This document shows positions 16,807 through 22,394 of a stretch of DNA of 44,115 nucleotides, piece by piece (within the stretch, counting starts at the first letter, position 1; every line of letters begins with the position of its first letter). Both the position numbers and the translations under genes were made by a program. The stretch is from assembly GCA_013215655.1 (NCBI GenBank), contig JABSOX010000048.1, positions 1-44,115 on the forward strand, written 5' to 3'. Below the pieces are notes generated by a model that saw only the letters and a list, made by a program, of their open reading frames with translations, did no database searches and was not told the DNA's origin. The stretch comes from Colwellia sp. (lineage in GTDB: Bacteria > Pseudomonadota > Gammaproteobacteria > Enterobacterales > Alteromonadaceae).

Positions 16807-17667
16807 TTATTGTCTTAATGTTCTCGCAAGTGGTGCTTGCTTTATTAACGTAGAGCGAAATGGGTTAATATCTAAGCCGCCTCTTCTAGTGTAGCGTGCA
16901 TATACCGTAAGTTCAGAAATGTCACAATGTTTTTTTAGATCACAGAAAATTCTTTCTACGCACTGCTCATGAAATTCATTATGTTGTCTAAAGGAAACCA
17001 GGTATTTTAGTAGCGATGAATGGTTTATTGCTCTTCCTGTGTAGGATATGTAAATACTGGCCCAATCAGGTTGGTTGGTTATTAAACAGTTTGACTTAAG
17101 TAAATGACTTACCAAAGATTCTGTTACCTTTTTCTCATCTGCTAAATGGCAATTTTTTAGCAGATCTGAGTTGAGTTTATAATTGTCTATATCAATATCT
17201 AGCTCATCTAAGCAAGTAGCGGGTGAGTTATTAATCGTTAGTGCTGGGCATAAATCAACGGGAAAAAGTGTTACTTGTGTTATCATTCCTGAGGTTCTAG
17301 AGAGATCTTTAATTAAATGTTCTTCGACTTGCTGCCATGAGCTAAATTTACTTTGATTAAAACTATTCAAGTATAATTTGAATGATTTAGACTCTACAAT
17401 CGCAGGGCTTTGGCAAGGAAACCTAAACTCAGCGACGGCTACAACGGGTTTTCCCTTAGCGTTGAGCCAAGAGAGTTCATAACCGTACCAGACATCTTCA
17501 CCGATAAAGGGTAAGTTTTTGTCGGTTATATTTAATGCATCTCTATTAAGTGTTCTTGGTACAGCTTGTAATAATTCTGGGTTATATTCACTACTATAAT
17601 TGGTGGGCTTTCCAAGTGTTAATTTACTAAGCTCGCTAGATTTTTTATATGTTGTCATTAATGTCAT
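16807..17667 (-). CDS. queF: NADPH-dependent 7-cyano-7-deazaguanine reductase
   Basis: QueF reduces preQ0 to preQ1 for queuosine in tRNA. This is the long, two-domain form. The N-terminal half has the substrate motif ESKSFKLYLNSFNQ, and the C-terminal half has the catalytic cysteine (about residue 194) in LKSNCLITNQPDW. The tail YARYTRRGGLDINPFR is as in E. coli. The start is uncertain: ATG at 17667 is given, ATG at 17658 aligns best with E. coli, and a TTG lies at 17673. It is divergent from syd, a neighbour of queF in enterobacteria too. Confidence 0.94.
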   Translation of the reverse strand: MTLMTTYKKSSELSKLTLGKPTNYSSEYNPELLQAVPRTLNRDALNITDKNLPFIGEDVWYGYELSWLNAKGKPVVAVAEFRFPCQSPAIVESKSFKLYLNSFNQSKFSSWQQVEEHLIKDLSRTSGMITQVTLFPVDLCPALTINNSPATCLDELDIDIDNYKLNSDLLKNCHLADEKKVTESLVSHLLKSNCLITNQPDWASIYISYTGRAINHSSLLKYLVSFRQHNEFHEQCVERIFCDLKKHCDISELTVYARYTRRGGLDINPFRSTLIKQAPLARTLRQ

Positions 17668-17728
17668 CACCAACTGTTGTTATTACTTATCTTTCATTAT
17701 CTACTATTTTAAAGGATTTCTTTGTTAT

Positions 17729-18286
17729 ATGAAATTATCCGCAAGCTCTTTACCTGAAATTATGGAACAGTTTATGGACTGTTATATTGAACTATATCAA
17801 GAGAAACATGAGCAGTTACCAATAATTGACATCGATGCTGACTGGCCGTCACCCTGCTTACAACACCTTCATAATGATAAAGAAGTCTTCTGGCAACCGA
17901 CAAAAAACAATGACTCTTTAAGTTTTGATAATGTTGAACAAGCACTTGAAATAAATTTACATGATGATATTCAAACCTATTTTACAACATATTTTAGTGA
18001 ATCTATTAATGCTAAATGTAGTGAAGGCGAGCTTTCTCTGTTATTGCCTTGGAGCATAGAGGATTTTAAACGTCTTCAAGAGAATATTATTGGCCACATA
18101 ATGATGAAAAAACGTCTAAAACAGCCCATAACTATCTTTTTTGCGGTAACCGATGATGAAGAAAATATCTTATCTATTGATAATGATAGTGGTGAGGTAT
18201 GGGTTGAGAGTGTTGGGTGCTTACCACATAAGAAATTAGCAGATTCACTCATTGAGTTTTTTAAACAAATAAGCCCCAAAGTTTAA
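17729..18286 (+). CDS. syd: SecY-interacting protein Syd
   Basis: Syd is a peripheral protein on the cytoplasmic face of the inner membrane that binds SecY and helps monitor translocon integrity. The 185-residue protein matches E. coli Syd in length and key stretches: WPSPCL, FWQPTK, the helix DFKRLQENIIGHIMMKKRLK and the SGEVWVES segment near the end. ATG at 17729 is chosen because translation upstream gives an unrelated hydrophobic extension. The gene marks the queF-syd-csrB neighbourhood shared with E. coli. Confidence 0.92.
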   Translation: MKLSASSLPEIMEQFMDCYIELYQEKHEQLPIIDIDADWPSPCLQHLHNDKEVFWQPTKNNDSLSFDNVEQALEINLHDDIQTYFTTYFSESINAKCSEGELSLLLPWSIEDFKRLQENIIGHIMMKKRLKQPITIFFAVTDDEENILSIDNDSGEVWVESVGCLPHKKLADSLIEFFKQISPKV

Positions 18287-19318: not shown

Positions 19319-19954
19319 ATGAGTGATATGGTTTCTGAAGAACAAGACTTAGATATTAAAGTTGCATATTTATCTGCGGAAGACCTAAAAATCGCCGCAT
19401 CTTTGTTGTATCAGGCTTATCACGATGACCCTGTTTTTTTAGATATATTTAATAGTGAAAAAACAGATTATGAACAGCGCTTACGTACTTCTATAAGAGA
19501 AGAACTAAGCGCTTTTTGGCATGCTAAACAGCCTATGGTTGGTTTATATTTAGGTGAAACCATGGTGGGTGTTGCATGTTTAAATAACCCTAATGAAGGT
19601 TGTACATCTGAGCGTTTTTGGCATTGGCGATTAAAAATGTTGTTGGGCGCTGGCTATTTTAGTACCAAACAAATGATTGAAAAAGAAAAAACTGTTTTGG
19701 CTGAAGTACCCATGAAAAAATTTCATATGTTATCTTTTATTGCTATACATCCTCTACATCAACATCATGGCTTTGGTCACTATCTAATGGCTGCGGTAAA
19801 TACTATTTTAGAGGAAAACAAAGAAAGTGAAGGTGTAGCCGTTTTTGCAACTACTAGTAAATATAAAGATTTTTTCAAAGATGTTGATTATGACTTTATT
19901 AAAGAGGTTAGTGTTGGTAAAGTTTCTGGCTCACTGATGGTTCATTTTAGGTAG
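19319..19954 (+). CDS. GNAT-family N-acetyltransferase
   Basis: A 211-residue protein with the GCN5-related acetyltransferase fold. Motif A, which binds the acetyl-CoA pyrophosphate, is IHPLHQHHGFGHYLMAAV at about 142-159. A C-terminal strand-helix pair (EGVAVFATTSKYKDFFKDVD) shapes the end of the active site. GGAG precedes the ATG. It is the last protein gene before the CsrB-type RNAs. The substrate is unknown; the AYHDDPVF segment is common in GNATs acting on small amines or resistance substrates, but this does not identify one. Confidence 0.85.
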   Translation: MSDMVSEEQDLDIKVAYLSAEDLKIAASLLYQAYHDDPVFLDIFNSEKTDYEQRLRTSIREELSAFWHAKQPMVGLYLGETMVGVACLNNPNEGCTSERFWHWRLKMLLGAGYFSTKQMIEKEKTVLAEVPMKKFHMLSFIAIHPLHQHHGFGHYLMAAVNTILEENKESEGVAVFATTSKYKDFFKDVDYDFIKEVSVGKVSGSLMVHFR

Positions 19955-20334
19955 GCTATGTTTAGGTTTTGTAATATCTTTATAACCTAATATTTAAATA
20001 ACACCATGTAAATGCCTCATTTTTATTGATAAACTAATTTGAGGCCACTTTCCAATTTTTTCTTGACATATACCTCTACGTTTCACTTTTTTAAAATAGT
20101 TGTCGCTAATAAAATATCAAATGAAAATTCCTTATTATCACCTTTCGTTGTAGGACATATCTTACATATTCGTAAGATATGCTGGTTAATAGATGCTGTT
20201 TTTGCTAAGGAATTTATTTACTTTATTGAATTTAATGGAGTTTTTTGTCTTTATATCGTTTTTTCATTAACAGTAAGTAATCTTTTAAATTTTAGCTGAT
20301 ACTAAAAATTTACTAAAAGAGTAATATTAATCAT
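19955..20334 (+). promoter_or_regulatory. Upstream regulatory region of CsrB-type RNA 1
   Basis: 380 bp without a convincing gene; an 86-codon frame here overlaps the control elements and has no family features. It contains a perfect 10-bp inverted repeat, CATATCTTAC (20156-20165) and GTAAGATATG (20172-20181), around ATATTC. A -10 box TAATAT (20322-20327) places the start near G20335. The inverted repeat is centred about 166 bp before it. GacA/UvrY-type activators act far upstream of csrB in other bacteria, and the half-sites contain the same CTTAC/GTAAG, but in reverse order to the textbook TGTAAG-N6-CTTACA. Confidence 0.65.
20322..20327 (+). promoter_or_regulatory. -10 element of CsrB-type RNA 1
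   Basis: TAATAT eight bases before G20335, where similarity with the second RNA begins (GTCAGGACGAC). No good -35 is visible, as expected for an activator-dependent promoter. Confidence 0.6.
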
Positions 20335-20644
20335 GTCAGGACGACAAAGGTTAGGAAAACCATTTTAAATGGATGTTGAACAAGGAGCCTTTAGATTAAG
20401 GTAGGAAATAGGGATATTACACACGGATTTTTTATAGGGATATTTTCAAGGATGTTGTCTACATGGATGTAACATCAGGATGATGAAAGGATAGACTTAG
20501 TTTAGGAAGAACTATTTAGAGGGACTGCTTTAAGGGATTATGGCATTGTTTAAGGATAAACATTCACGGATGAATTGATAGCTAAGTATGCAGGATGCAT
20601 AAATCTAGTTGAAAAAAAGCGACTCTTAAGAGGCGCTTTTTTTT
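20335..20644 (+). ncRNA. csrB1: CsrB-family CsrA-sequestering RNA, copy 1
   Basis: A non-coding RNA of about 310 nt predicted to bind many copies of the translational regulator CsrA and keep it off mRNAs. I count 18 GGA triplets, nearly all as AGGA, TGGA or GGGA. Several sit in hairpin tips: GTCAGGACGAC at the 5' end (20335-20345), CATCAGGATGATG (20473-20485, identical to a repeat in E. coli CsrB) and TATGCAGGATGCATA (20587-20601). It ends in an intrinsic terminator. It lies in the syd-truC interval, as csrB does in E. coli. No open frame fits. The symbol is provisional. Confidence 0.92.
20612..20644 (+). terminator. Terminator of CsrB-type RNA 1
   Basis: The stem AGCG-A-CTC / GAG-G-CGCT has a single A-G mismatch and a TTAA loop. 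Seven A residues precede it and eight T residues follow. Confidence 0.88.
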
Positions 20645-20701
20645 CGTCTAAAGAAAAGTAAAAAAAATGTTAACAGTACATATCACTATTTGTTTGTGAG
20701 A

Positions 20702-20727
20702 TATATCGCACATCATCGTAAGATATA
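20702..20727 (+). promoter_or_regulatory. Inverted repeat upstream of CsrB-type RNA 2
   Basis: TATATCGCAC (20702-20711) and GTAAGATATA (20718-20727) around ATCATC, pairing at eight of ten positions. The right arm and the 6-base spacer repeat the element at 20156-20181. Its centre is about 166 bp before the inferred start G20880, the same distance as in copy 1, so it is probably the binding site of a shared activator. Confidence 0.6.
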
Positions 20728-20866
20728 CGACTATTTTTCTAAAGGAATTACTGTCACTTATCTTTAATGTAATGAATTTGTTAATAAAATACAAATTAAA
20801 GCAATATCGCTTTAATTACTGCTAATATTTTTTTTAAAGCTGTCTTCAATTAATATTATCGAAGAG

Positions 20867-20872
20867 TATTAT
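20867..20872 (+). promoter_or_regulatory. -10 element of CsrB-type RNA 2
   Basis: TATTAT eight bases before G20880. The surrounding GAGTATTATTAA matches GAGTAATATTAA of copy 1. Confidence 0.6.
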
Positions 20873-20879
20873 TAACACT

Positions 20880-21205
20880 GTCAGGACGACACAAGTAAGG
20901 GATGCACAAGTAAGGGATGACAACTGAACAGGATTTCAATTAGGATGAAGTAAGGATACTTTAAAGGATTATATAAGGATATATTTTCATGGATAGGCAA
21001 GTATGGATACTTTCATCAGGATGATGAACAATATTTTTAATAACTCAGGATGAGTTGTTGCTATGGATAGTAAGATGGAAAATAAAAGGAATTATTAGGA
21101 TGTACTATGGATAGTTCTTTATGGATGAAGCGGGATCACTAAAATGTGCAGGATGCATAAAAGCTAGTAAAAAAAATGCGACTCGAATGAGTCGCATTTT
21201 TTATT
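20880..21205 (+). ncRNA. csrB2: CsrB-family CsrA-sequestering RNA, copy 2
   Basis: A second RNA of about 325 nt, with 20 GGA triplets by my count. It shares the 5' end TGTCAGGACGACA and the 3' end GCAGGATGCATAA with copy 1, while the middle differs. Clear hairpins with GGA at the tip are TTCATCAGGATGATGAA (21012-21028) and AACTCAGGATGAGTT (21042-21056), both of the E. coli CsrB type. A 15-bp direct repeat, ACAAGTAAGGGATG (20891-20904 and 20906-20919), has multiplied one site. Its own promoter and terminator make it an independent gene. It probably arose by tandem duplication. The symbol is provisional. Confidence 0.92.
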
Positions 21206-21207
21206 TG
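21171..21207. terminator. Terminator of CsrB-type RNA 2, probably bidirectional
   Basis: ATGCGACTC (21176-21184) pairs perfectly with GAGTCGCAT (21189-21197) around GAAT. A-run and T-run flanks mean it can also stop the convergent gene ending at 21255. Confidence 0.92.
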
Positions 21208-21237
21208 TGAATTTTATTTCTCTAAAATTAAATTAAC

Positions 21238-21270
21238 ATTCAATTAACACTCAATTAATACTCAATTAAT
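21238..21270. repeat. 11-bp tandem repeat across a stop codon
   Basis: Three units, ATTCAATTAAC, ACTCAATTAAT and ACTCAATTAAT, run through the stop codon of the minus-strand membrane-protein gene (stop at 21255-21257). It looks like replication slippage. Loss or gain of a unit would alter the last residues or the reading frame end. Confidence 0.8.
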
Positions 21271-22337
21271 TCTGAATAAATCTTATGTTTTCCTAGTACC
21301 GCTTGACTGCCTTTGAGAGAAAAAGAGTATCCACATAAGGTGAATTTCCCACGAAATGCGATGTTATTTAAAATTACTCTTGTATCGAGAGGTGAAAATG
21401 TTGCATAAAATTTTTCTGCTCCTTCATTTATCACCGAGAGTGTTCGTACATCGTCCCCATTATTAAATGTAATGTTTTGGCAGCTTGAATCACCCTGAAT
21501 ACTTGTTTGATCCCAAATTGGAGAAGTTTGCTTAGTATCACCATGCCAACTAATAATGACACCATTAAAAGGTGATAACATGAGTGAAAAATTGTCAGGT
21601 AGGGTGACAGCATGAAGGCGTATTGTAGTTTCCTGTTTTTTATCTATTTGTTTGCTTGAAGGTAACCCTTGTTTATCTTGAGAGAAGATTAACCCAAGGA
21701 TTATCATTGTGAAAATAATAGTAACTACTGCAGCGAAATATTTTTTATTTTCCAATACAGCAATTCGTATTTTTTCACCAATATCCTGTTTATTATTATG
21801 TATAGCATTTTCATTTTTTGCAGTGGAGGAGGCTGTCGCTAGTACTTCTGAATATATTTCTGTTGATAGCAGTTCGTTGTGAACAATCGTCGGCTCTACT
21901 CTATTTGCTCTGCGTTGCTGGTAGGTTTCTTTAGAATTGCTGTTGTCTATATTAATTGGTCCATTATAGCCATACGAATACGGAATATCTTTGTTACTTG
22001 GATAAGTGAGTAAGAAAAATGAGAATATTGCAGATAAGAGCAGTAACCAATAAAATAAATTAAGTTCGGTAATTATGATCAGTAAACCAATGATTAAAAA
22101 TGATATGACAGGCATGAAAAGCCATTTTTGTTTTAAAACTGCATCATTTAATCGACGTAAGGTGGTTAGTGCACTAAGTGCTATCGATATTAATAAGAAA
22201 AGAATTAATAAAAAGGTAATATTAGAAAATAATATACTTGCAATAACAAAGCTAACATAAGAAGTTGTGTTGATTATCGCATACCTACTTCTGTTATCTT
22301 TACCTTTTTGACAAAATAATGATTTCAATAATGTCAC
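21255..22337 (-). CDS. DUF805-like membrane protein with C-terminal extracytoplasmic domain
   Basis: A 360-residue protein. Residues 18-115 hold about four membrane helices, with LRRLNDAVLKQKWLF between the second and third. This resembles the RLHD motif of DUF805 proteins, with Asn for His. A polar linker (120-200) leads to another helix (about 203-222, YFAAVVTIIFTMIILGLIF) and a C-terminal domain of about 135 residues, rich in beta-strand. The domain has two cysteines (CQNITF, LCGYSF) that could pair if periplasmic. I know no function. It is third in a minus-strand run after DUF3549 and DUF3301 and converges on the csrB2 terminator. Confidence 0.75.
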   Translation of the reverse strand: MTLLKSLFCQKGKDNRSRYAIINTTSYVSFVIASILFSNITFLLILFLLISIALSALTTLRRLNDAVLKQKWLFMPVISFLIIGLLIIITELNLFYWLLLLSAIFSFFLLTYPSNKDIPYSYGYNGPINIDNSNSKETYQQRRANRVEPTIVHNELLSTEIYSEVLATASSTAKNENAIHNNKQDIGEKIRIAVLENKKYFAAVVTIIFTMIILGLIFSQDKQGLPSSKQIDKKQETTIRLHAVTLPDNFSLMLSPFNGVIISWHGDTKQTSPIWDQTSIQGDSSCQNITFNNGDDVRTLSVINEGAEKFYATFSPLDTRVILNNIAFRGKFTLCGYSFSLKGSQAVLGKHKIYSELIEY

Positions 22338-22394
22338 AAAACCTCCACTACAATTCTTTATTGGTTGTATTAATTTTTTTGTATAGTTGTTACA

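Follow-up and report, generated by a model that had tools for sequence, protein, structure and literature searches.

The window, that is, the whole stretch of 44,115 nucleotides of Colwellia sp. analysed here, carries two head-to-tail units on the + strand, both non-coding and rich in GGA, which are very probably CsrB-type small RNAs that sequester CsrA. This identity is proposed from sequence because the GGA motifs are dense and accessible, UvrY boxes lie at about –185, the genome holds genes for CsrA, UvrY and a BarA-type domain, and the gene order is that of the csrB locus of E. coli; the CsrB-type reading of an earlier note on this DNA is supported by the same evidence. The features referred to below are as follows, where A and B denote the two RNA slots that relatives have on either side of the mem360 gene.

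17600–18286, + strand: syd, a synteny marker and neighbour of csrB in E. coli
20149–20166, + strand: predicted UvrY/GacA box (TGTAGGACATATCTTACA) that precedes the inferred start of unit 1 by 186 nt and has no mismatch to the pattern
20171–20180, + strand: extra half-site-like element (CGTAAGATAT), 4 nt after box 1, in the A-type promoter form
20322–20327, + strand: –10-like box TAATAT of unit 1, by direct reading
20335–20648, + strand: unit 1, putative CsrB-type small RNA of about 310 nt with 18 GGA, its start placed from the –10 spacing
20473–20485, + strand: hairpin CATCAGGATGATG of unit 1 with GGA in the loop, by folding
20587–20609, + strand: A-type 3' module of unit 1, the TATGCAGGATGCATA hairpin and then CTAGT
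20612–20648, + strand: predicted intrinsic terminator of unit 1, arms 20612–20627 and 20628–20643, –14 kcal/mol
20695–20712, + strand: predicted UvrY/GacA box (TGTGAGATATATCGCACA) that precedes the inferred start of unit 2 by 185 nt
20717–20726, + strand: extra half-site-like element (CGTAAGATAT), 4 nt after box 2
20867–20872, + strand: –10-like box TATTAT of unit 2, by direct reading
20880–21207, + strand: unit 2, putative CsrB-type small RNA of about 325 nt with 20 GGA
21014–21026, + strand: hairpin CATCAGGATGATG of unit 2 with GGA in the loop, by folding
21145–21168, + strand: A-type 3' module of unit 2, the GCAGGATGC hairpin and then GCTAGT
21171–21205, + strand: predicted intrinsic terminator of unit 2, arms 21171–21184 and 21189–21202, –19 kcal/mol, z –8.3
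21255–22337, – strand: mem360, a 360-aa protein without Pfam match, which separates the A and B RNA slots in relatives
22338–22394, no strand: empty B slot, which holds a second RNA in many relatives; here mem360 and the DUF3301 gene are about 58 bp apart

Exact counting gives 18 GGA motifs in unit 1 and 20 in unit 2, and neither number was reached in any of 2000 dinucleotide shuffles of the respective unit (means 10.5 and 9.9, maxima 17 and 16). By comparison, the + strand of the window holds on average 2.4 GGA per 318-nt stretch, with a top count of 8 in stretches clear of both units, and the top count on the – strand is 6. The two units begin with a common 5' end, GTCAGGACGACA, placed 7 nt after the –10-like box in both, and are separated by about 230 bp. 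They have in common a 5' stretch of 39 nt and a 3' stretch of 55 nt, each with 82% identity, and their middles are unlike, just as the earlier note had described. Both terminator hairpins are followed by a T run; the stem of unit 1, AAAAGCGAC, has one mismatch and is weaker than that of unit 2. No ORF of at least 60 aa was found on either strand of 20299–21255, and the longest ATG ORFs within the units have at most 30 aa. A simple consensus scan of 19900–21300 returned no terminator-like site and five promoter-like sites (8.4 expected in shuffles), none of them at the unit starts; its –35/–10 rule is ill-suited to activator-dependent promoters. The promoter and terminator assignments therefore rest on direct reading, on folding and on recurrence in relatives. 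The GGA numbers, –10 boxes, hairpins and terminators claimed earlier agree with the exact counts and the folding.

The many GGA motifs of both units are largely accessible or placed in hairpin loops. Their mean unpaired probability is 0.64 in unit 1 and 0.72 in unit 2, and the G's within them are unpaired with a probability of 0.64 and 0.73, respectively, as compared with 0.38 for the other G's outside the terminators. In the minimum-energy fold, 4 of the 18 motifs of unit 1 and 9 of the 20 motifs of unit 2 lie in hairpin loops, and the median GGA spacing is 14 nt. The whole fold of unit 2 is better than that of shuffled sequences (z –2.75; none of 100 shuffles as good), and the minimum free energy of the whole fold of unit 1 is ordinary (z –1.0; 17 of 100 shuffles as good).

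Predicted regulatory sequences, which the earlier note does not mention, precede both units. The UvrY/GacA pattern has two matches in the window, as against 0.03 expected by chance, and seven matches at six sites over the entire genome of 5.56 Mb. The two window boxes alone precede 18–20 GGA; 1–6 GGA follow the other matches, and no further unit was found there. The same genome encodes CsrA (65 aa), a UvrY-family regulator (392 bits versus a curated cut-off of 280) and an sCache_4 domain, a domain found in BarA, within a 936-aa open frame. The upstream UvrY/GacA boxes thus coexist with genes for CsrA, UvrY and a candidate BarA, the last assigned solely by this domain and the frame length; an ORF of 700 aa sought in the stretch around the sCache_4 match was not found.

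The position of the units is that of csrB. In the window, the order is queF, syd, a 107-aa ORF, DUF3192, GNAT, unit 1, unit 2, mem360, DUF3301, DUF3549 and truC, the last being a pseudouridine synthase by Pfam, and in E. coli K-12 it is truC, yqcC, csrB, syd and queF. Since the gene orders match, the two units, which lie between syd and truC, occupy the csrB position, in agreement with the earlier statement that E. coli csrB sits in the same neighbourhood near syd.

The Rfam CsrB model, the check proposed in the earlier note, gave matches to both units, and both stay below the gathering cut-off of 71 bits. RF00018 scores 33.9 bits against unit 2 (E 2.3e-7) and 19.7 bits against unit 1 (20453–20647; E 0.0045), with 13.2 bits for the 5' part of unit 1 (20314–20436); under stricter filters, unit 2 is its only match in the own genome. 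At gathering cut-offs, no Rfam family matched anywhere in the window, and weak matches there to STnc100 and other families were rejected as below cut-off. Of the refuting condition set in the earlier note, a missing CsrB match combined with a missing transcript, the first half holds at this cut-off. Across 59 genomes, RF00018 has some match in 31, false ones included, and 9 pass the cut-off, all of them outside the family of the window, of which 35 genomes were searched. As controls, the GGA-rich units at the same locus in Shewanella gelidii (L168), Pseudoalteromonas phenolica (L173) and P. fuliginea (L179) also fall below the cut-off, as do those of three Colwellia-like loci (L107, L111 and L138). 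For both Shewanella and P. fuliginea, tests on Csr RNAs from other strains have been published (PMC3171408, PMC9927453, PMC11882849). Because the cut-off misses the same-locus units of Shewanella and Pseudoalteromonas, we regard failure to reach it as uninformative, and because the window units fall below it, they are filed under the functional class and not as members of RF00018. At least two weak RF00018 matches in same-genus genomes were rejected as Csr units: the one in G002 falls within a short tandem repeat, where GGA number 7 or fewer per 250 nt, and the one in G001 within a stretch of repeated TCAGGATGACGGAGATGGTA-like units that lacks a UvrY box.

Units of this kind recur within the family. 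A pattern made of the –10 box and the 5' end matched in 47 of 196 family genomes, as against 1 for the reversed control, and 28 of the 30 loci fetched with it hold a UvrY box (up to two mismatches allowed) and a GGA-rich unit, the exceptions being L097 and L102. In the own genome, the pattern has two matches, both at the window units, and thus revealed no further copy; a BLAST search with unit 2 gave a best E of 0.13 beyond unit 1 and the terminator palindrome of unit 2 itself, although such copy searches could miss a diverged copy without the pattern, BLAST or GGA features. A plasmid search gave no match. In another genome (G069), nine identical copies of TATTATGTGGGTTGTCAGGAAGA occur and are probably a dispersed repeat or insertion element; the copy at L102 is accompanied by no unit.

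Among 37 loci around the DUF3549 gene (best matches, L107–L143), some of which are on short contigs, at least one unit is present in 26, two in 9 and, by the criteria used, none in 11, counting a unit on the other strand in L133 and one 8.5 kb away in L128. Part of the 11 loci are without a unit because their RNAs sit elsewhere together with mem360 (L109, L119). All nine two-unit loci have the same arrangement, with A beyond mem360, B between mem360 and DUF3301, and both in the same direction. The gap between A and B is 1467–4513 bp in these loci, as compared with the short spacer of the window units. In each of the five further genomes of the genus that were searched (G001–G005), mem360 has a GGA-rich unit on either side, and in three of them (G001–G003) the block of RNAs and mem360 is no longer beside DUF3549. 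The mem360 protein recurs beside csr RNAs in relatives with 29–43% identity, and in these three genomes its gene has moved with them.

The two RNA types are told apart by motif patterns, which were written after inspecting the rows. The 3' module GC[AT]GGA[AT]GC...CTAG is present in all 18 A-type rows and in none of the 10 B-type rows; it also marks the A-side unit in G001, G002 and G003, and both window units carry it. The element GT[AG][ACG]GA[TCG]A after the UvrY box is likewise found in 18/18 A-type and 0/10 B-type rows. For 16 A rows, C. hornerae (B) and G001 (B), the labels fit the side of mem360 on which the units lie; that of GY13 (B) comes only from adjacency to DUF3301, and those of G018_third and MAG91, both counted as A, come from tree and sequence. 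In MAG91 (L142), the A-type sequence directly adjoins DUF3301, and mem360 was not found, which speaks against the loss of B and duplication of A proposed below. Seen in the aligned promoters, a third half-site-like element (GTRAGATAT-like) lies 4–5 nt past the UvrY box in all 18 A-type promoters, and 9 of 10 B-type promoters have GTCAG at this position, a difference that may give each RNA its own tuning of UvrY binding. In addition, GCTAG stands between the last GGA hairpin and the terminator (20605–20609 and 21163–21168 in the window) in 18 of 18 A-type rows, unit 1 having only CTAG, and is perhaps a site for an RNase or another protein.

Multiple units also occur outside the family. Tight pairs are seen in S. 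gelidii (L168), where the units are about 300 bp apart, and in P. phenolica (L173), where the distance is about 800 bp. A locus from the same order (L056, G042:C1:4532500-4538500) holds a row of five CsrB-type units spaced at about 700 bp; four of them have similar GGA spans (344–369 nt) and almost identical terminators. In L066 (G035:C1:593500-597500), the 700 nt at 1512–2211 contain 55 GGA, and the Pseudoalteromonas loci L146, L147 and L159 have stretches of about 870 nt with 68–69 GGA. These long stretches may be unusually long Csr-type RNAs or fused units.

We propose that each unit has an activator-dependent promoter with a –10 box only, which would be turned on when UvrY, phosphorylated by a BarA-type sensor, occupies the box some 185 nt ahead of the start. 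The two RNAs, presumably transcribed separately, would each present many GGA motifs over about 310–325 nt, a good part of them unpaired or in small hairpin loops. As expected from the family, each would bind several CsrA dimers and so free CsrA-repressed mRNAs. We consider it improbable that one unit is a decaying pseudogene and activity is confined to the other: unit 1 scores lower than unit 2 on RF00018 and has a weaker fold and a weaker, mismatched terminator, but it keeps its 18 GGA, a UvrY box free of mismatches, a –10 box and a terminator. A GGA-rich repeat or short coding region without RNA function is scarcely credible, given that no ORF runs over the units and that UvrY boxes, synteny and recurrence in relatives all argue for regulatory RNAs, despite some tandem repetition (two 15-nt copies from 20890 in unit 2) and the Rfam scores below cut-off.

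With regard to the origin of the pair, the B-type RNA was probably lost and the A-type RNA duplicated in tandem. The B-type RNA beyond mem360 would have disappeared, and the A-type RNA that neighbours GNAT would have been copied and then have diverged, the 5' end of unit 1 perhaps being converted from B. Both window units lie on the A side of mem360, with promoter and 3' modules of the A type, and the B slot measures about 58 bp. A less likely reading is that the ancestral B-type RNA left its place beyond mem360 and became unit 1, upstream of the A-type RNA, so that the pair is an old A+B pair reordered. The first 40 nt of unit 1 have their best match in the B unit of Colwellia DT_20 (90% identity), its terminator stem is B-like, the full-length tree groups it with B on a weak branch (78/90), and the B slot of the window is empty. 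Against this, none of the 10 B rows has the A-type upstream element or the A-type 3' module, and unit 1 carries both. In the RNA tree, these rows are split from the two window units (98/96), although a grouping of unit 1 with B is not rejected by the AU test (p 0.276, RNA alone). The same holds for unit 2 grouped with B (p 0.096 and 0.402) and for the window units as one clade (p 0.083 and 0.118), a clade that the trees do not recover. The duplication followed by divergence put forward earlier thus stands as likely in the form of A duplicated and B lost, by the A-type modules and the empty B slot, and the trees leave the relation of the copies undecided.

From the same sequence comparisons, the loss of B and duplication of A would fit into a wider history, which on balance we favour. 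Colwellia and its relatives would ancestrally have had diverged CsrB-type RNAs A and B flanking one gene, with type-specific half-sites after the UvrY boxes and scores below the Rfam cut-off. Alone among six genomes of the genus, the present one would have lost B and acquired a tandem A duplicate instead, the first 40 nt of which were perhaps converted from B. If so, this A+A genome is a natural test of whether the two RNAs have different jobs or serve dosage only.

Literature searches for Csr RNAs in Colwelliaceae, in their Colwellia/CsrA/CsrB part among the matches listed, and for CsrB, tandem and Colwellia found no paper, and a search for Thalassotalea, CsrA and sRNA gave PMC11882849 as the one match. 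The main text of PMC5568370 does not mention Colwellia, and the available sections of PMC5471319 use C. psychrerythraea 34H as a comparison species and name no Colwellia Csr RNA. The pair most likely consists of CsrA-sponge RNAs of a known kind, and the way in which it may have arisen is mildly new. The analysis places Csr sponge RNAs, by sequence, at the csrB locus of marine Colwellia-type bacteria, in a family where none of the 35 genomes searched passes the Rfam CsrB cut-off. It also offers a small comparative series (A+B in relatives, A+A in this genome) with which to address why several copies persist in bacteria. Our understanding of the Csr system is unchanged by the pair.

Comparison with known systems reveals both shared and distinct features. 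E. coli CsrB (RF00018), for which UvrY control is expected, has the same neighbourhood (truC, syd and queF) and GGA in hairpin loops; only one csrB is present at its locus, whereas the window has two units, which score below the RF00018 cut-off. In Vibrio tasmaniensis, as far as the accessible text of PMC6262261 describes, csrB is likewise duplicated, with copies under different control, but these fall in different synteny groups, while those of the window are adjacent. The units also resemble the GGA-bearing CsrA antagonists Pf1, Pf2 and Pf3, which were tested in the marine relative Pseudoalteromonas fuliginea and are reported with 9–25 GGA in the sections consulted of PMC9927453 and PMC11882849. 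In the latter, Pf1–Pf3 were expressed in E. coli K-12 and glycogen was stained with iodine. Pf1 has 25 GGA in PMC11882849 and around 21 in the earlier PMC9927453, and the portion available of PMC11882849 (2025) states that Pf1 and Pf2 have no significant match outside Pseudoalteromonas. A unit with 25 GGA lies beside DUF3549 in P. fuliginea KMM 216 (L179), and the equal GGA number suggests that it may be Pf1.

The Shewanella RNAs CsrB1 and CsrB2, predicted at 420 and 421 bp, resemble the window pair in being two neighbouring GGA-rich RNAs with a UvrY box upstream of each, according to the available part of PMC3171408. In the same source, csrB1 and csrB2 are adjacent in species such as S. putrefaciens CN-32, and in S. 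oneidensis they are separated by a transposase gene and both depend on UvrY. The earlier surmise that such a pair may already be known in relatives is thereby borne out for Shewanella. S. gelidii (L168) resembles the window in having two units beside DUF3549. Unlike CsrB1 and CsrB2 as described there, the window units are shorter, at about 310–325 nt, and the mem360 gene lies beyond the pair.
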